Shown: in pieces, positions 25,743-34,283 of the stretch | How the letters are laid out: the number at the start of each line of letters is the position of its first letter | Numbering within the stretch: position 1 is the first letter of the stretch | Assembly (NCBI GenBank): GCA_947452985.1 | Contig: CANGEU010000003.1 | Coordinates: 1-34,283 of the forward strand | Direction of reading: 5' to 3' | Origin: Micrococcales bacterium | Lineage (GTDB): Bacteria; Actinomycetota; Actinomycetes; Actinomycetales; Microbacteriaceae | Length of the DNA: 34,283 bases | The notes under the pieces: generated by a model | Told to the model about the DNA's origin: nothing | The model's database searches: none | What the model saw: only the letters and a program-made list of their open reading frames with translations | Position numbers and translations under genes: made by a program

Positions 25743-27230
25743 ATGCTGAAGCGCGCAAAGGCTTTACTTTTAGCTTTTGCACTAACCCTCGGGCTGTTCA
25801 CCGGTATCACGCCAGCCGATGCCGCTACACCTACTCTCAAAGAAGGCACCGATGCTGCGGCGGTCTTATTCGACCCACTCGCTGTCAGCAAGATTGAACT
25901 TTCGCGCGTTGCCGGCGGACCTGCCCTAACCTTCGAATACCTAAACGTTGCCGACTACCAGCGCGCCGACATCAAGATCACCCTCGCTGGAAAAAAAGCG
26001 GTCACCCTCAAGAACATCGGCGTTCGCCTTAAGGGTCAGGCCTCTCGGTACGACGTCAAGTTCCCGATGAAAATAAAGTTCGACGCATTCGTCCCCGGCC
26101 AAAAGTTTCTGGGGCTCAAGCGCCTAACTCTAAACAACATGGTTCAAGACTCTTCGTTCATCCACGAGGTCACCGCCTACAAGCTTTATCGTTCTGCCGG
26201 CGTTCCGGCACCTAGAGCCAGCTACTCGCAGGTTTCTGTTGATGGCACTTACTTTGGCGTTTACCTGAACCTCGAATCGATTGACACGGTGTTCGGTGCG
26301 CGCTGGTACAAATCGACCAAGCACATCTATTCTGGCCCTTACAACTGCGACATCGTGCCGGGTAACACCTGCTACGAAGCCAGCATTGGAAACACCGACC
26401 GCACCGATTTGGCTGTGGCCGGAGCAGCCGCCGACCTTCATGGTGAAGCCTGGTGGAACACCATCAACCAGGTAGCCGACATGCCTCGCGTAATCAAATT
26501 GATGGCAACCGACATCTTCTTGAGCAACTGGGATGGCTACACCGACGCCGTGCAGAACAACCACTTCGTTCACTTCGACGACAAGGGCAAGTTCACAATC
26601 ATCCCTTGGGGTCTTGATCAAACTTTCACTCAAGATCAGAATGCCGAACTGCGCTGGGATGCCTCGCAGCCGGTTTTCCGTAACTGGTCAGATCATCGCA
26701 GCACTCTGCTTGATCACTGCATCGAATATGTTCCCTGCCACACCGCTCTAATTCGCGAAGGCGTAAATATTTCCAAAATTGCTACTTCGGTGAAATTGGT
26801 AAATTACAAAAACTTGGTCGCGGCTAAAATCAATCCGATCATTAGCGGTAACCCCGACTTCCACTGGCAAGCTCAAGAATCCCTTCAAAACCAGCAGGCT
26901 TGGGTTGACACCTTCATCCCGCAGCGCCAGGCGGCACTAACCAATTACCTAATCGCACACTCTCCACGGCCGATTACCATCAGCTTGCCAGCCACAATTC
27001 GCGCAGGGCAAACCATCAAAGCCACAGTGGAGAAAATTTGGGAGCCAGGCGTCACGGCTTCTTACCAATGGAAACTTGATGGCAATCCAATTGCTCGTGG
27101 AACCGCGCTTACACACCGAGTCGTCACCGCTGAGGTCGGCCACGCGCTGACTTTCACACTAACTTTGAACAAAGCCAACGTGCAATCTACCTCTATGGAA
27201 GTTACTAAGACCGTTCTTAGAAGAAAATAG
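25743..27230 (+). CDS. Secreted CotH-kinase family protein (copy 1)
   Basis: CotH proteins are secreted or coat-associated atypical protein kinases with a kinase-like fold. This 495-residue protein has a signal peptide cut near TPADA-AT (about residue 28). The kinase domain runs from about residue 35 to 395, with GVRLKGQASRYDVKFPMKIKF, GNTDRTDLAVAG, LSNWDGYTDAVQNNHFVHF and FTIIPWGLDQTF, where the aspartate is the metal-binding residue. The C-terminus holds one Ig-like repeat (SYQWKLDGNPIARGT). It is a tandem paralogue of the next gene. The role in a non-sporulating actinobacterium is unknown; phosphorylation of surface proteins is a family-based guess. Confidence 0.85.
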   Translation: MLKRAKALLLAFALTLGLFTGITPADAATPTLKEGTDAAAVLFDPLAVSKIELSRVAGGPALTFEYLNVADYQRADIKITLAGKKAVTLKNIGVRLKGQASRYDVKFPMKIKFDAFVPGQKFLGLKRLTLNNMVQDSSFIHEVTAYKLYRSAGVPAPRASYSQVSVDGTYFGVYLNLESIDTVFGARWYKSTKHIYSGPYNCDIVPGNTCYEASIGNTDRTDLAVAGAAADLHGEAWWNTINQVADMPRVIKLMATDIFLSNWDGYTDAVQNNHFVHFDDKGKFTIIPWGLDQTFTQDQNAELRWDASQPVFRNWSDHRSTLLDHCIEYVPCHTALIREGVNISKIATSVKLVNYKNLVAAKINPIISGNPDFHWQAQESLQNQQAWVDTFIPQRQAALTNYLIAHSPRPITISLPATIRAGQTIKATVEKIWEPGVTASYQWKLDGNPIARGTALTHRVVTAEVGHALTFTLTLNKANVQSTSMEVTKTVLRRK

Positions 27231-27234
27231 TTAA

Positions 27235-28989
27235 ATGGCTAAACGCATCGGTCTTCTGATCGTTGCCGTTGCAATTCTTTTGGGAAACTTCGGCACCGTG
27301 GCGTTCGCCGACACCAAGACTTCGGTCCTTCAGGAAGGCACCGACGAAGCCGCCGTACTTTTCGACCCACTAAAGCCGTTTACGGTTTCGGTCATTCACC
27401 AAATCGGCGAACCGGCTCTCACCCACAAATTCTTGAACAGCCCGGTTTACCGCCACGCCACAGTGAAAATCACGATGTCGGGTTCCAAAAAATACACCGT
27501 CCTCTACAACGTCGGAGTAAGACTCAAAGGCACCTACACTCGCAAGTTTGAAAAGATGTCGCTCAAAATCAGGTTCGACGCCTTCGTCAAAGACCAAACC
27601 TTTATGGGCTTACATCGACTGACCCTCAACGCCATGATGCAAGACGAATCTCAGGTTCGTGAAGTGACTGCGTACCGATTGTTCCGTGCGATGGGTGTCC
27701 CCGCGTCGAGAGCCGGTTTCGCCAGGGTAAGAATCGACGGCGCCTACCAGGGGCTTTACCTAAACCTTGAGTCAGTTGATTCAACGATGCTTAAGAAATG
27801 GTTCGACTCAACCGAACACCTCTACTCGGGCAAGCGCCCCTGCGACCTCACGCCCACCAACTCGTGTTACGTGACCAGCCTTGGTAACTCGGACCGAACC
27901 GATGTGCTCACCGCCGGCAAACTTCACCTGCTCTCCGGAGAAGAGTGGTGGAAAGCCTTCCAGAAAGCTTCCGATTCGGAACGAGTGTTGCGCTTCTTAG
28001 CCACGGAAATCTTCCTCAGCCACTGGGATGGCTACGGCGACTACATGCGCAATAACCACTACGTTCACTTCGACAAAGATGGCCGCTTCACCCTTATTCC
28101 TTGGGGAATGGATCAAACCTTCCCGGCCGAACTAAAACACCAACTCACCTGGGATGCCTCCAAGCCGGTCTATCTTGGCAGCGCCACCGAACGTAGCAGC
28201 CTAATCACCCACTGCCTCGACTACCGACCATGCCACGACCGCCTGCTCTACTTCGGCTATCTGGCATCTCAAACTGCTGACAAAATCGACCTAACCGGTT
28301 TCAAAGATCAGATTGTCGCCAAAATTTCTCAGCGACGCTTCGCCATCAATGACACGTCAAAGATCGCACCAAAAATTCGCCAGGTTCAGCGCAAATGGGT
28401 CACCGACTACCTGCCGGTCAGTCGCAAAGGTTTACTCAACTTCCTGCTACTAAGGAGCCCTGCCCAACTTCAGGTGATCATGCCGGAAACCCTGAACATC
28501 GGGAAAACCGCTAGGCCTCTAGTTCAAACGGTCTGGGAGCCAGGTGTGAAAGCCAGCTACCAATGGATCCTCGATGGCAAACCAATCCCCGAAGCTACAA
28601 AAACCACCTATACGGTCTTGAATGAACAGCTTGGTCACAAGATCAAGTTGCGCGTCACACTCAAAAAAGCCGCCGTCAACGACACCGTCTACTTCTCCTC
28701 AACGAAGAAGGTCCTCGCCAAAGCACTAGCCAAGACTCCGATCCCAACCATCAATGGCAAGGCCATCATCGGCAAAACGCTAAAGGCCATCACCGGCACC
28801 TGGGATAGCCAAGTAACACTCAAGCTGCAGTGGCTGCGAAACGGCAACCCAATTCCAAATGCCACCAAAACTTCCTACAAAATCTCCAAACTCGACTTCG
28901 ACCAAAAAATCACAGTCAAAGTCACCGGAACTAAACCTGGTTTCGCCACGGTTTCGAGAACCAGCGAATCAACCAAAAAGGTTTCCTAA
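27235..28989 (+). CDS. Secreted CotH-kinase family protein (copy 2)
   Basis: This 584-residue paralogue of the preceding gene begins 5 bp after its stop. The signal peptide ends near VAFA-DT. The kinase domain is preserved: GVRLKGTYTRKFEKMSLKIRF, LGNSDRTDVLTAG, LSHWDGYGDYMRNNHYVHF and FTLIPWGMDQTFPAEL. It carries two C-terminal Ig-like repeats (SYQWILDGKPIPEATKTTY and LQWLRNGNPIPNATKTSY) instead of one, of a type common in secreted Microbacteriaceae proteins and likely used for wall or surface binding. Start site: the ATG lies shortly after the previous stop with only a weak ribosome binding site, suggesting coupled translation. Confidence 0.85.
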   Translation: MAKRIGLLIVAVAILLGNFGTVAFADTKTSVLQEGTDEAAVLFDPLKPFTVSVIHQIGEPALTHKFLNSPVYRHATVKITMSGSKKYTVLYNVGVRLKGTYTRKFEKMSLKIRFDAFVKDQTFMGLHRLTLNAMMQDESQVREVTAYRLFRAMGVPASRAGFARVRIDGAYQGLYLNLESVDSTMLKKWFDSTEHLYSGKRPCDLTPTNSCYVTSLGNSDRTDVLTAGKLHLLSGEEWWKAFQKASDSERVLRFLATEIFLSHWDGYGDYMRNNHYVHFDKDGRFTLIPWGMDQTFPAELKHQLTWDASKPVYLGSATERSSLITHCLDYRPCHDRLLYFGYLASQTADKIDLTGFKDQIVAKISQRRFAINDTSKIAPKIRQVQRKWVTDYLPVSRKGLLNFLLLRSPAQLQVIMPETLNIGKTARPLVQTVWEPGVKASYQWILDGKPIPEATKTTYTVLNEQLGHKIKLRVTLKKAAVNDTVYFSSTKKVLAKALAKTPIPTINGKAIIGKTLKAITGTWDSQVTLKLQWLRNGNPIPNATKTSYKISKLDFDQKITVKVTGTKPGFATVSRTSESTKKVS

Positions 28990-30258: not shown

Positions 30259-31266
30259 ATGACTAAGCCAAACCTGCTCTCCGGCATGCAACCTTCTGCC
30301 GGCTCCCTTCACCTCGGCAACTATCTAGGCGCCTTGGTCAACTGGGCAGACATGCAGGATGACTACAACGCTTACTACGTCATCGTTGACCTTCACGCCA
30401 TCACCGTTCCTCAAGACCCTGAAGAACTCCGCACCAACTCACGCCGAACCGCCGCTCAATACATCGCAGCTGGCATCGACGTCAGCAAATCAGCACTCTT
30501 CGTACAAAGTCACGTTCCAGCTCACGCCCAGCTAGCCTGGGTCCTCAACTGCATCACCGGCTTCGGCGAAGCCAGCCGCATGACCCAGTTCAAAGACAAG
30601 AGCCAGAAAGCCGGCGCCGATTCAGCGTCAGTTGGTCTCTTCACCTACCCAATCCTTCAGGCTGCCGACATCCTCCTCTACCAACCAAAGGCCGTTCCGG
30701 TTGGTGAAGACCAGCGCCAGCACATCGAACTAACCCGCGACCTTGCAACCCGTTTCAACGCTCGTTTCGGCGAAACTTTTGTAATTCCAGAAGCAGTAAT
30801 CCTCAAGGAAACCGCCAAGATCTACGACCTTCAAAATCCAACAGCCAAGATGTCGAAATCCGCCGCCGACCCTAAGGGTCTGGTAAACATCATGGACGAC
30901 AACGCGGTCATCCTAAAGAAGATCAAGAGCGCAGTTACCGACACCGATGGCATCATCAAGTTCGACCGCGAAGCCAAGCCAGGCGTCTCTAACCTGCTCG
31001 GAATCCACTCAGCAATCTCCGGCCGCTCCATCGCATCACTGGAGGAGCAGTTCGCCGGCGAAGGCTATGGCGCTCTGAAAGCTGAAGTAGCCGACGTGGT
31101 CATCGCTGCCATCGAACCAATCCGCGAGCGCACCCAAGAACTAATGGCCGACCAAAACGAGCTTGACCGACTTCTTGCAGACGGCGCGGACAAAGCTAAC
31201 GAGCTAGCCGAGGCAACCCTCGCTAAGGTCTACGACGCTATCGGTTTCCTAAAAGCAAAGAACTAA
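30259..31266 (+). CDS. trpS: Tryptophanyl-tRNA synthetase
   Basis: This enzyme charges tRNA-Trp. The 335-residue class I synthetase has the HIGH-like motif in [12 protein letters not shown], the segment [18 protein letters not shown], and the KMSKS motif in [10 protein letters not shown]. It is complete and in frame. Its last 350 bp (from 30914) recur at 32744-33093 as a separate fragment; the resident version here differs in five residues from that copy. The stop codon overlaps the stop of the convergent DUF4417-like gene, and its terminator hairpin lies inside that gene. I infer that the 3' third of this gene was replaced when the downstream cassette was inserted. Confidence 0.96.
30914..31010 (+). 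repeat. 97-bp direct repeat, copy 1 (inside trpS)
   Basis: This copy matches 32744-32840 at 96 of 97 positions (difference at 30936). It starts abruptly: the base before it differs and upstream sequence is unrelated. After it, homology continues to the trpS stop but with 44 differences in 253 bp. Confidence 0.93.
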
Positions 31267-31898
31267 AACAAAAAGACTTTCGTCTTTTTCTTTATCTCTC
31301 TCACAAAGTTCGGCGAAACTCGACCGTAAATAATCACGCCTTCCGGCTCAATTATGTCGACCATTGCAGTCAGACCCTTCTCGAATTCGATGTTCGAATT
31401 GAGATCTTTGTATCCGGAATCTACAGTTACTGCGAATACGCTACCCTTTTCAATTCCGCTGGAAACAAGCTCGTAATCCGACTCGTCACACCATCTGATT
31501 GACGGAATAACTGTAAGTCCTCGATATTGCCAAACGGCTCCGGCTGCGCGAGCCAAAACGGTATTTCTTGCTCGTTGCCAGGGAGCAAGGTTTGGTGACA
31601 AGTATGAATCGGGGCTAATCACACACCTAAAGTCTGCAAACTTGTGAATCCAAGTCATTGGACGAGTAAGGGCAGTCATGTTTTTCGGTCCGTGATCAAA
31701 TGAGTGCAGACCAGTGGTCGCTGGGGATTCAAATCGTTTCGGACTGTTGAAAATAAGCAATTTCTCTGGGATATCCTCAAGACCGGCCTTGTAAATGATT
31801 GGGACTTTCTGAAGACCGTCGGTTTCATGCCAAAATCCGAGCCCTTCGGGCGACTCTCCGAAAAGTATCCGTTCTTTTTCAGTAGGTAGGTCGAACAC
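31263..31898 (-). CDS. DUF4417-like protein, module 1
   Basis: This is a 211-residue protein without membrane segments. The core matches my recollection of the DUF4417 family known from phages, plasmids and genomic islands: [10 protein letters not shown] near residue 90, [20 protein letters not shown] near 110, [13 protein letters not shown] near 130, then [12 protein letters not shown] and a late IIYGRVSP. The biochemical function is unknown. It is a diverged paralogue of the gene at 33142 (about 45% identity over the core by hand alignment). The GTG start has GGAGG 8 nt upstream and overlaps the partner's stop by one base, so translation is coupled. The end is also peculiar: the last ten codons (KKKTKVFLF) contain the trpS terminator and the stop overlaps the trpS stop. 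Confidence 0.7.
31270..31289. terminator. Bidirectional terminator after trpS, inside the DUF4417-like gene
   Basis: AAAAAGAC-TTTC-GTCTTTTT forms a perfect 8-bp stem with a T tract on either strand. It begins 4 bp after the trpS stop. On the minus strand it lies within the last codons of the convergent gene, so that transcript would end close to its own stop codon. Confidence 0.75.
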
Positions 31899-32452
31899 TA
31901 TTTTTCCTCCAGCAGATCGTCGATGGCTACAAGTTGATACTCGAAATCTATATCGGGTTCTTCATCGAAAACATCCTGACGGCTGGGCACTTCCAACTCC
32001 TCAAGCGAGTTCAAATATTTGACGTCAAAAAGAAAGAAGAATGGTTGGTACAGGTGGAAATATATGTAGCTACATTCCAGTTCCAAGATGATTCCGCGTT
32101 CACAGCAGTGCTCGAATCGGTTCCCTTCATTGTCCAACCTATTTTTATAGGTAGTTCTCACCACAAAAATATTCTTGATTAATTGATGGCGTTTCTGGAG
32201 AAAAACCCAACCGGCTGCTAAACATTTTCTCTGGTAATTCAAATCTGAAATTCGAACCTCAAAACAGCCGGCATCTAGGTCGTTATAGTCATCTGAAACC
32301 ATTTGAATTGAGGGGCCGTCAGTCGCTATATGAACGCTGTCAATATTGTCTAAGCTGCGCCAGTCCATTTCATAGAGAAATTCAAATCGATGGCCTTTGA
32401 GTAGTCGCAAATTTGCCAATGAGTCTCGGCTCATTATGGTTTCGATAATCAT
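31898..32452 (-). CDS. Hypothetical protein, partner of DUF4417-like gene, module 1
   Basis: I do not recognise this 184-residue protein. It is acidic toward the C-terminus (EELEVPSRQDVFDEEPDIDFE; DDLLEEK) and rich in aromatic residues in the middle (YIYFHLYQPFFFLFDVKYL), probably beta strands of a soluble protein rather than a membrane segment. A block VKYLNSLEELEVP recurs as VEYLYDLETLTNVP in the partial gene at the window end, so both partners are probably homologous. The ATG at 32452 has a good GGGGAAG site and a promoter just upstream. It is the first gene of a two-gene unit with the DUF4417-like gene. AT content is higher than in the chromosomal genes. A regulator, antitoxin-like or immunity role would be guesswork. 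Confidence 0.65.
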   Translation of the reverse strand: MIIETIMSRDSLANLRLLKGHRFEFLYEMDWRSLDNIDSVHIATDGPSIQMVSDDYNDLDAGCFEVRISDLNYQRKCLAAGWVFLQKRHQLIKNIFVVRTTYKNRLDNEGNRFEHCCERGIILELECSYIYFHLYQPFFFLFDVKYLNSLEELEVPSRQDVFDEEPDIDFEYQLVAIDDLLEEK

Positions 32453-32469
32453 TTCTTCCCCTTTTCGAA

Positions 32470-32497
32470 AATCTAACCACCGGGCTCAGACATTCAA
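32470..32497 (-). promoter_or_regulatory. Promoter of DUF4417 module 1
   Basis: On the minus strand TTGAAT (32497-32492) and TAGATT (32475-32470) are separated by 16 bp and lie 17 bp before the partner-gene ATG. This is the only promoter in the window where both -35 and -10 are convincing, and its mRNA would carry a short leader with a Shine-Dalgarno sequence. Confidence 0.6.
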
Positions 32498-32567
32498 AGC
32501 AGGCGGGAAATCAGGAATAGATGGGTCAACCCACAGGTTTATCTGTAATGCTTGTCAAACTAACAAA

Positions 32568-32618
32568 GTTCTTCGGGGTCAGTGAAAATCTGAGCCGGCG
32601 GTTATAGTCCGCGACCCG
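32568..32618 (+). promoter_or_regulatory. Truncated FMN riboswitch (RFN element), 5' half
   Basis: The sequence carries the front half of an actinobacterial FMN riboswitch: CTTCGGGGTC, the stem-loop TCAG-TGAAAA-TCTGA, and CCGGCGGTTATAGTCCGCGA with the P3 stem GCGG/CCGC, then ACCCG. The second half (the GGTGAAATTCC and CCGACGGT..AGTCCGGATG parts) is not found, so it cannot fold into the full FMN pocket. It is a remnant, followed within a few bases by a ribD fragment, the gene such a riboswitch normally controls. Confidence 0.75.
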
Positions 32619-32622
32619 ACAG

Positions 32623-32743
32623 GTGGTAACACTTGGCGGTTCAGCCTTGTAATCACACCGGTCGCACTGGTCCTTGTGCTCAAGCGTTGATTGCTGCTGG
32701 TATTTCCCGAGTTGTTTATGCTTCCGCTGATCCTGGTGTTGAG
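32623..32743 (+). pseudogene. ribD: ribD fragment (riboflavin deaminase/reductase), broken
   Basis: From 32648 to 32743 the plus strand encodes 32 residues that match the zinc-binding core of the RibD deaminase: CNHTGRTGPCAQALIAAG then ISRVVYASADPGVE. Just before it, VVTL fits the family's VTLEPC but in another frame, with about seven extra bases between, so a frameshift is present. The gene start, the first 60 or so codons and the entire reductase domain are missing. The frame hits the TAA that opens the trpS repeat at 32744, so the break lies exactly on that junction. Confidence 0.78.
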
Positions 32744-32840
32744 TAAAGAAGATCAAGAGCGCAGTCACCGACACCGATGGCATCATCAAGTTCGACCGCG
32801 AAGCCAAGCCAGGCGTCTCTAACCTGCTCGGAATCCACTC
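32744..32840 (+). repeat. 97-bp direct repeat, copy 2 (start of the trpS fragment)
   Basis: This is the second copy of 30914-31010 with a single mismatch, offset by exactly 1,830 bp. It begins right at the end of the ribD fragment. Confidence 0.93.
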
Positions 32841-33096
32841 GGCAATCTCAGGCCGTTCAATCGAATCACTCGAAGAGCAATTCGCTGGCGAAGGCTACGG
32901 CTCCCTAAAGGCTGAAGTTGCCGACGTAGTAATCGCCACCATCGAACCAATCCGAGAGCGCACTCAGGAACTCATGAGCGATCAAAACGAACTCGACCGC
33001 CTACTCGCCGACGGTGCTGACAAGGCTAACGAGCTTGCCGAGGCAACACTGGCTAAGGTCTATGACGCAATCGGTTTCCTCAAAGCCAAGAGGTGA
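32744..33096 (+). pseudogene. trpS: Displaced 3' fragment of trpS
   Basis: The fragment encodes the last 116 codons of tryptophanyl-tRNA synthetase from [12 protein letters not shown] to the stop, with no indel against the resident trpS and only five amino-acid changes (A to E, A to S, A to T, A to S, and the final N to R). It has no promoter, start codon or upstream part. Of 45 nucleotide differences, 44 lie after the first 97 bp. The intact frame and mostly silent changes say it was part of a working trpS until recently. Confidence 0.93.
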
Positions 33097-33141: not shown

Positions 33142-33858
33142 TCAATCAAAGAGCGTGAAATCCGTTTCGCTTGACTCATGCGGCTTAGCCGGCGTGGTCC
33201 GAAAGGTCGAAGTTATTGGAGGGCGTGGAAAAAGCTGAGTCCTATCTTGAACTATGTCAGTTAATCGGGGGTAAAGCTTTCCGAACAGAATTATTCCTTT
33301 AGGTTCCAGCGTGGAAATGAGCGCATCAAGACCTTGTTCAAAAATTATTTTTGCTTCTGGTTCAAGATAAGAACCGTAGTTGCTGACAGCAACGACGCTG
33401 CCCATTTCAATTCCCGCAAAGACAAAGTCATAATCTTCCTGAGAGACCCAGCGTAGAGAAGGAATCACTTTGAGCCCATGGTGTGACCAGACAGCCCCCG
33501 CATCTCGAGAGTGAACCGTGTTAGAAATTCTTAGATACTCCGGCATTCCCTTAGCTATGGTCACATCCGGCGTGAGTGTGCATTTAAACGAGGCGAAGCG
33601 ATCGACCCACTTAACCGGTTCGATTAGGGGCCCTGCAAACTTTCGATCGTCTCTATAAAAATGAAGCCCCGTTTGCGATGGCGATGCAGCGCGGCGGCGA
33701 TCATCAAAAGCAATTAACGCCTCCGGAATGTCACTCAACGAAACTTTTGGAAGTAGCGGAATTTGGTATTTAGAGACGACCGGGAAGTCTTTTGGATACC
33801 CTTCAGGCGTGGCATGAAATAACAGGCGCTCAACCATACTCTTGGCGTCCAGACCCAT
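33142..33858 (-). CDS. DUF4417-like protein, module 2
   Basis: This 238-residue paralogue of the gene at 31263 has the same core: FKCTLTPDVTI near residue 98, RISNTVHSRDAGAVWSHHGL, VIPSLRWVSQEDY, GIEMGSVVAVS and ILFGKLYP. It has a C-terminal tail of about 30 extra residues (PRPPITSTFRTTPAKPHESS). The shared residues point to the conserved surface: the proline-aspartate pair, the R-x-x-NTV..R stretch, IPS-RW and GIE-GS. Its ATG follows the partner's stop directly (TAAATG). The gene lies behind the displaced trpS end in the same way that module 1 lies behind trpS. No enzyme activity can be assigned from sequence. Confidence 0.7.
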   Translation of the reverse strand: MGLDAKSMVERLLFHATPEGYPKDFPVVSKYQIPLLPKVSLSDIPEALIAFDDRRRAASPSQTGLHFYRDDRKFAGPLIEPVKWVDRFASFKCTLTPDVTIAKGMPEYLRISNTVHSRDAGAVWSHHGLKVIPSLRWVSQEDYDFVFAGIEMGSVVAVSNYGSYLEPEAKIIFEQGLDALISTLEPKGIILFGKLYPRLTDIVQDRTQLFPRPPITSTFRTTPAKPHESSETDFTLFD

Positions 33859-34283
33859 TTAGTTCAGTTCTTCCAAGGAATCAGAGAAAGAAACCTTAGA
33901 CCTGGAAATTGTGTGGGTCACAAATAAATTATCGCTATACAGGTTCGGAACATTTGTTAAGGTTTCGAGGTCGTATAGATACTCAACCTGCAGCACGCCA
34001 TTATTGTGTGTGTCCTTCGAAACGGAAATGAAGCCCGACTTCAATTGAAAAACGACCGCAACATCGGACTCGTAGGTCCAATTTTCAACGTCGTTTTCGT
34101 ATTCAGTAATTGTTTCGCGAAACACATACCCTTGGATAATTTCTTCGTTAGAAAACTTATAGAAACGATCTTGAGAGTTTCGATTGCCAGATAGAACACC
34201 ACTCTCGAGGCTGCTAACGGTCAGCACGGTATATTCTTCGTCAATACCTTCGAAATTGAGAACTACGACGCGACTGCCAATTT
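33859..34283 (-). CDS. Hypothetical protein, partner of DUF4417-like gene, module 2 (partial, 5' end cut)
   Basis: The reading frame is open to the window edge, so the start lies outside; 141 codons are visible. A GTG at 34227 is an internal alternative but upstream codons (VVVLNFEGIDEEYTV) look equally coding. The protein is acidic and beta-rich. The C-terminal part shares V-x-Y-L-x-x-L-E-x-L..VP and the ending DSLEEL with the partner in module 1 (DDLLEE), which suggests distant homology. It sits directly upstream of its DUF4417-like gene without a gap. Function unknown. Confidence 0.6.
   Translation of the reverse strand, partial: IGSRVVVLNFEGIDEEYTVLTVSSLESGVLSGNRNSQDRFYKFSNEEIIQGYVFRETITEYENDVENWTYESDVAVVFQLKSGFISVSKDTHNNGVLQVEYLYDLETLTNVPNLYSDNLFVTHTISRSKVSFSDSLEELN

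Follow-up and report, generated by a model that had tools for sequence, protein, structure and literature searches.

Stacked gene cassettes and hybrid ribD-trpS scars between trpS and the riboflavin operon of a Rhodoluna genome

The window (34,283 nucleotides) is the start of contig C3 (110 kb) of a 1.42-Mb assembly, referred to as G000, which comprises 39 contigs and is 92.26% complete; C3 coordinates given below reach past the window. Rhodoluna is among the named relatives that its TrpS matches best (94% identity to a Rhodoluna limnophila assembly over residues 1-251), and the host is a Rhodoluna. An array known from this single assembly is flanked by core genes, trpS on one side and the riboflavin operon on the other, and reads trpS, cassette 1, J1, cassette 2, J2, cassette 3, FMN riboswitch and ribD. 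J1 and J2 denote the first and second junctions (scars), each with an extra trpS 3' end, and R denotes the resident trpS. The names A125 and B190 are labels coined here for cassette proteins.

The resident trpS (30259..31266, forward strand) is complete and encodes 335 aa (PF00579, E-value 2e-75). It is followed by cassette 1, composed of a gene for a DUF4417 protein of 211 aa (31263..31898, reverse strand; PF14386, E-value 2e-21), which is convergent with trpS and overlaps its stop, and of a B190 partner of 184 aa without family match (31898..32452, reverse strand). J1 consists, on the forward strand, of the 5' part of an FMN riboswitch (81 nt, 32565..32645), an internal ribD fragment of 105 bp with 9 differences from the resident ribD (32640..32744), and a trpS 3' end that runs from codon 219 to the stop without the 5' part of the gene (32744..33096). 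Cassette 2 contains a second DUF4417 gene (238 aa, 33142..33858, reverse strand; PF14386, E-value 5e-35), a B190 gene (188 aa) that occupies 33859..34283 on the reverse strand and crosses the window end to reach C3:34425, and, outside the window, A125 (150 aa, C3:34428-34880). The remaining features also lie past the window: J2 (C3:35250-35825), built like J1 and including the third trpS 3' end (G000:C3:35479-35826, 98% at protein level), the 191-aa gene of cassette 3 (C3:35829-36404), a complete FMN riboswitch (C3:36471-36601, 100 bits with Rfam) and ribD (from C3:36669). Two tandem CotH-kinase-like genes (PF08757) are located in the window at 25743-27230 and 27235-28989.

The first-pass annotation had described a duplication of the trpS 3' end, and the comparison of the two window copies confirmed it: 30914..31010 and 32744-32840 on the forward strand form a 97-bp tract with a single mismatch, the next 253 sites (31011-31263 and their partner) differ at 44 positions without any gap, and the 29 bases upstream of 30914 do not align with their counterpart. 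Both copies are in the trpS frame, the second with its own stop at 33094-33096, and the repeat is far beyond chance (a 300-nt pair at 88%, E-value ~1e-105). Over 352 sites, the number of differences is 46 for R-J1, 41 for R-J2 and 43 for J1-J2 (12-13%), and the copies are 14-17% apart in codons 251-334. Most of these differences (39/46, 38/41 and 36/43, in the same order; binomial p < 1e-10) fall at third codon positions, which indicates that the trpS copies mostly diverged while they were working genes. The proposal that the ends come from different lineages is borne out by this mostly synonymous divergence and by the riboswitch leader of J2, which is nearest to that of another species, G018 (about 4 differences in 132 positions, 97.0%, vs about 8 with the resident leader, 93.9%).

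Breakpoints were located by the maximum chi-square method, with p values uncorrected for multiple comparisons. The best break was at codon 251 for R-J1 (p 0.016), codon 304 for R-J2 (p 0.007), codon 264 for J1-J2 (p 0.003), and again codon 251 for R against the congener G032 (p 0.0002). Recombination within trpS, as had been suggested from the R-J1 pair, thus finds support in breaks at pair-specific codons among the G000 copies. Unevenness of rate along trpS may add to this signal, since 8 of 12 pairs gave p < 0.05 and one of these, G007-G032 (codon 323), involves no G000 sequence.

The origin of the 97-bp tract was addressed by codon matching, counting only codons that code for the same residue in both sequences. 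Codons 220-250 (30916-31008, forward strand) are common to the J copies and G032: in this interval R matches G032 at 26/28 codons, G005 at 22/31, G033 at 18/28 and G001 at 12/28. Outside the tract, the match of R with G032 falls to 110/195 in codons 1-218 and 23/60 in codons 251-334, and J1 shows 27/28 matches with G032 in the tract and 27/59 in the tail (Fisher p 1e-4 for R, tract vs codons 1-218, and 3e-6 for J1, tract vs tail). The possibility that the block is simply ultraconserved, which the first-pass annotation had named as an objection to its own reading, is ruled out, given that the distant congener G032 matches it and the nearer G005 and G033 match less well. From these comparisons we infer that the tract arose by crossover or conversion between a scar and the resident gene. 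Because the homology between R and the scar begins at the start of the trpS part of the scar, conversion from the scar into R would be the simplest reading; a crossover would account for the sequences equally well. In G005, the closest relative, contig C145 stops at trpS codon 251, one base past the first R-J1 difference downstream of the tract; this coincidence with the onset of R-J1 divergence is only suggestive.

The two scars are identical in build: 81 nt of FMN riboswitch, a 346-nt deletion, 105 nt of ribD, and trpS from codon 219 to the stop. The riboswitch and ribD parts join at TTCAGC in J1; the corresponding hexamer is TTGAGC in J2 as well as in the riboswitch and ribD themselves. The ribD/trpS joint reads GTTGAGT / AAAGAAG, leading into trpS codon 219. 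The truncated riboswitches score about 21 bits each (20.7 bits in J1), under the Rfam gathering score of 66.2. Among 67 Rhodoluna genomes, a search whose filters lose weak matches returned one FMN riboswitch per genome in 52 and none in the other 15. Compared with the resident ribD, 8 of the 9 differences in the J1 fragment and 6 of 6 in that of J2 are at codon position 3. The scar core is much alike in J1 and J2 (7/288 sites differ), whereas the trpS tail (34/240) and the stretch ahead of the riboswitch (8/48) are more divergent. A similar core with divergent tails is what would be expected if crossovers hit the core and the tails travel with the cassettes. The ribD-trpS joint has 1 base in common with resident codon 219 and 2 with GTA, which G032 and G007 have at this place; with a microhomology this short, the illegitimate joining step is putative. 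No match across the joint was obtained in the other 66 Rhodoluna genomes (at most nine candidates scored per genome) or in a search of viral contigs, so that stepwise growth of the array was not seen among them.

The same site was surveyed across the genus. A match was obtained in 57 of the 67 Rhodoluna genomes, and 60 congener regions were read together with that of G000 (61 in all). The claim that the site is variable held: in the 46 genomes, counting G000, where a single stretch covers both trpS and the riboswitch, the gap is short (17-171 bp) in 32 and occupied by more than 300 bp of cargo in 14. The cargo is of several kinds, including a three-gene DUF4417 module and, from reading of the translations, sugar ABC transporters in G047, G048, G065 and G066. 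In G032, G054 and G023, cargo precedes the riboswitch and the trpS end is outside the analysed stretch. G018 carries the 191-aa gene directly behind a trpS end, as in unit 3 of the array (80.6% over 860 columns); a candidate riboswitch remnant between its genes was dropped, as the alignment disagreed. Among the 32 short-gap genomes, a contig edge truncates trpS in G016, G041 and G051, each of which has a further trpS piece on a different contig; these may be the ends of longer arrays. Contig edges cut trpS in eleven congeners; the idea that such edges hide arrays was dropped, about 10 being expected by chance on a rough estimate. On contig C69 of G041, trpS is normal to about codon 248 and then gives way to other sequence, no more than about 40 bases from the contig end. 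Across the family, a search with the TrpS C-terminus gave matches in 192 of 199 genomes, nine of them outside Rhodoluna with 2 or 3.

DUF4417 proteins scored above the cut-off in 14 of 67 Rhodoluna genomes, at the trpS site or just before the riboswitch in 9 of them. The A125 protein is encoded by 14 of 67 Rhodoluna genomes; of 199 genomes sampled across the family, 3 have it, G000 included. Neither A125 nor B190 has an ncbifam or padloc match or a Pfam match beyond chance level, and a single weak PHROG match of unknown function was recorded for them (E-value 0.007). The cargo was not assigned to any known toxin, immunity or defence family in Pfam, ncbifam, padloc or PHROG, DUF4417 being listed without function in Pfam. 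Among solved structures, the DUF4417 protein had no match and A125 a single one, at chance level. Searching viral contigs for DUF4417 relatives gave 6 candidates, none of which was confirmed. Phages commonly encode DUF4417 relatives (473 records, of which a few carry a nuclease annotation), and fusions of phage relatives to ParB-CTPase folds are described (PMC12704722).

Copies of gene ends also accompany cargo in other genomes. In G055, a second trpS end that begins at about codon 237 and continues to a stop (92.9% over 312 columns) lies between other cargo. In G051 (C11, 3503-9526), a 3'-end copy of the adjoining DEAD-box helicase gene (the last ~32 codons, 108 columns at 76.9%) stands between two tandem DUF4417 modules, with an IrrE-like gene on the opposite side; the second trpS piece of this genome, on a separate contig, extends back to codon 175 and is cut there. 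In another genus, copies of an MFS gene end enclose a DUF4417 module in G232 (92 bp at 98.9%) and in G103 (168 columns at 90.5%, neither copy being complete within the contig), and HipA genes occupy the far side. A further module of G232 is bracketed by 34-bp copies located where an rlmN-like gene starts. A clear repeat was present in 4 of 17 module flank pairs (G051, G232 twice, G103); the other 13 gave no clear one, and 5 of these had little flank (L176a, L179, L038, L074 and L040). Five single cassettes at trpS have no flanking repeat, which indicates that the additive step is not the rule.

These copies could be read as the trace of the DUF4417 module itself, taken as an integrase-free mobile unit that settles at host gene ends and leaves the end of its target directly repeated, with trpS (G000), the DEAD-box helicase (G051), MFS genes (G232, G103) and the start of an rlmN-like gene (G232) as its targets. 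Either a module protein would cut the target and repair would copy the gene end, or competence alone would spread the module, in which case host gene ends would be its sole mobility sequence. We regard such a unit as doubtful.

What lies at the G000 locus is three cassettes, two scars with the same joint, and trpS ends that are mosaic and differ mostly at synonymous sites, at a position that is short or otherwise filled in congeners. The array is probably the product of additive cassette capture through natural transformation, with one homologous and one illegitimate end, followed by recombination between scars. A cell would have imported DNA of a relative spanning trpS, a cassette, the riboswitch and part of ribD. 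One end of this DNA would have paired and recombined with the resident trpS, and the other, broken within ribD, would have been joined to codon 219 of the resident trpS via 1-2 common bases. This joining step, a homology-facilitated illegitimate recombination, would have made the first scar, leaving an intact trpS, the former 3' end and cassette shifted downstream, and a ribD-trpS scar between the units. The scar could then have served as homology for later DNA or for sister chromosomes, by which the second scar would have been added, and recombination between scars would exchange cassettes, bringing in trpS tails and riboswitch leaders of donor type with them. The trpS tract with its breakpoints represents the homologous anchor at one end, G000 has a ComEC-family match, and Rhodoluna lacicola is described as taking up and recombining linear DNA (PMC11577799).

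A tandem duplication in place, reaching from trpS codon 219 into ribD and arising by chance or through microhomology, with later decay and replacement of the cargo, would directly give the geometry observed (trpS, cargo, ribD'/trpS', cargo, ribD) and the identical joint found twice. We consider it unlikely in this simple form, as the trpS ends are 12-13% apart and mostly at third positions, which is the divergence of working genes and not decay after duplication, and the cargo differs among units. If DNA from relatives later overwrote the ends of such a duplication, this reading merges with the additive capture favoured here.

In E. coli, the e14 element gives the housekeeping gene icd a new 3' end, and the array resembles it in supplying trpS with new 3' ends; it differs in that no integrase and no fixed core were found. 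The first-pass annotation had left open two readings of the 97 bp, a crossover zone or an attachment-site-like core. On the second reading, two site-specific integrative elements or satellites without their own integrase would have inserted in tandem at the trpS 3' end. Every cassette does start right behind a trpS stop and bring its own 3' end, the resident trpS is intact while the extra copies run to the stop, a near-identical tract followed by divergence would suit an attachment core, and a phage-type integrase elsewhere in the genome could act in trans. The copies, on the other hand, begin at no fixed point (codon 219 in G000, about codon 237 in G055), the breaks vary among the G000 pairs, and each junction holds ribD and riboswitch pieces; the presence of pieces of the other flanking gene, ribD, is what recombination between flanking genes would leave. 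The three PF00589 matches of G000 are on C1 and C2 and none is on C3, the phage-type integrase (401 aa) adjoins a tRNA-Arg gene, and no integrase or transposase appeared in the Pfam results for the six array proteins scanned, nor any tyrosine integrase on C3. The crossover (or conversion) part of the claim was therefore retained and the attachment-site core set aside, insertion of this kind being quite improbable. The phage-type integrase gene beside tRNA-Arg(tct), at G000:C1:133887-135092, is probably part of a separate integrated element.

A misjoining of sequences from mixed strains was judged very improbable: many congener assemblies are fragmented, including the eleven in which trpS is cut, but the array lies on one 110-kb contig of an assembly with a contamination estimate of 0.08, the exact joint occurs twice with different neighbours, the 191-aa gene follows the trpS end in G018 as in unit 3, and similar scars are present in G055, G051, G232 and G103.

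In the literature searched, no description of the trpS-ribD site or of this pattern was found. The closest printed precedent found there is the orphan immunity array of type VI secretion in Vibrio cholerae, in which modules from different lineages are stacked (Kirchberger 2017, PMC5361080); its authors propose a homologous anchor with an illegitimate joint, older modules and the gene 3' end being pushed downstream. The Rhodoluna array shares with it the stacked modules of mixed lineage and this combination of ends, and differs in that the anchor and fragment come from housekeeping genes, trpS and ribD, instead of secretion and effector genes, and in that the cargo is no known effector-immunity pair. 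Homology-facilitated illegitimate recombination, with one homologous and one illegitimate end, is described in naturally competent species (PMC3240628); here it is deduced from a scar that ordinary recombination seems to have used again. In aquatic bacteria, additive and replacement flexible genomic islands carry variable cargo between core genes (PMC4033161), and resemble the array in their exchange by homologous recombination and in mostly synonymous border changes; additive islands are tied in that account to integrases or transposases, unlike the array, where none was found. Merodiploids of Streptococcus pneumoniae arise by tandem duplication through transformation (PMC3784515), as reported there over about 100-900 kb between pre-existing repeats, whereas the present units measure a few kb or less and have a new joint.

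If additive capture is the correct reading, a streamlined lake bacterium would collect cassettes without integrases, using core genes as landing pads, and the first scar would itself turn into a landing pad for later cassettes. With a genetically tractable Rhodoluna at hand (PMC11577799), it would be possible to measure directly how often replacement and additive capture occur at trpS-ribD.
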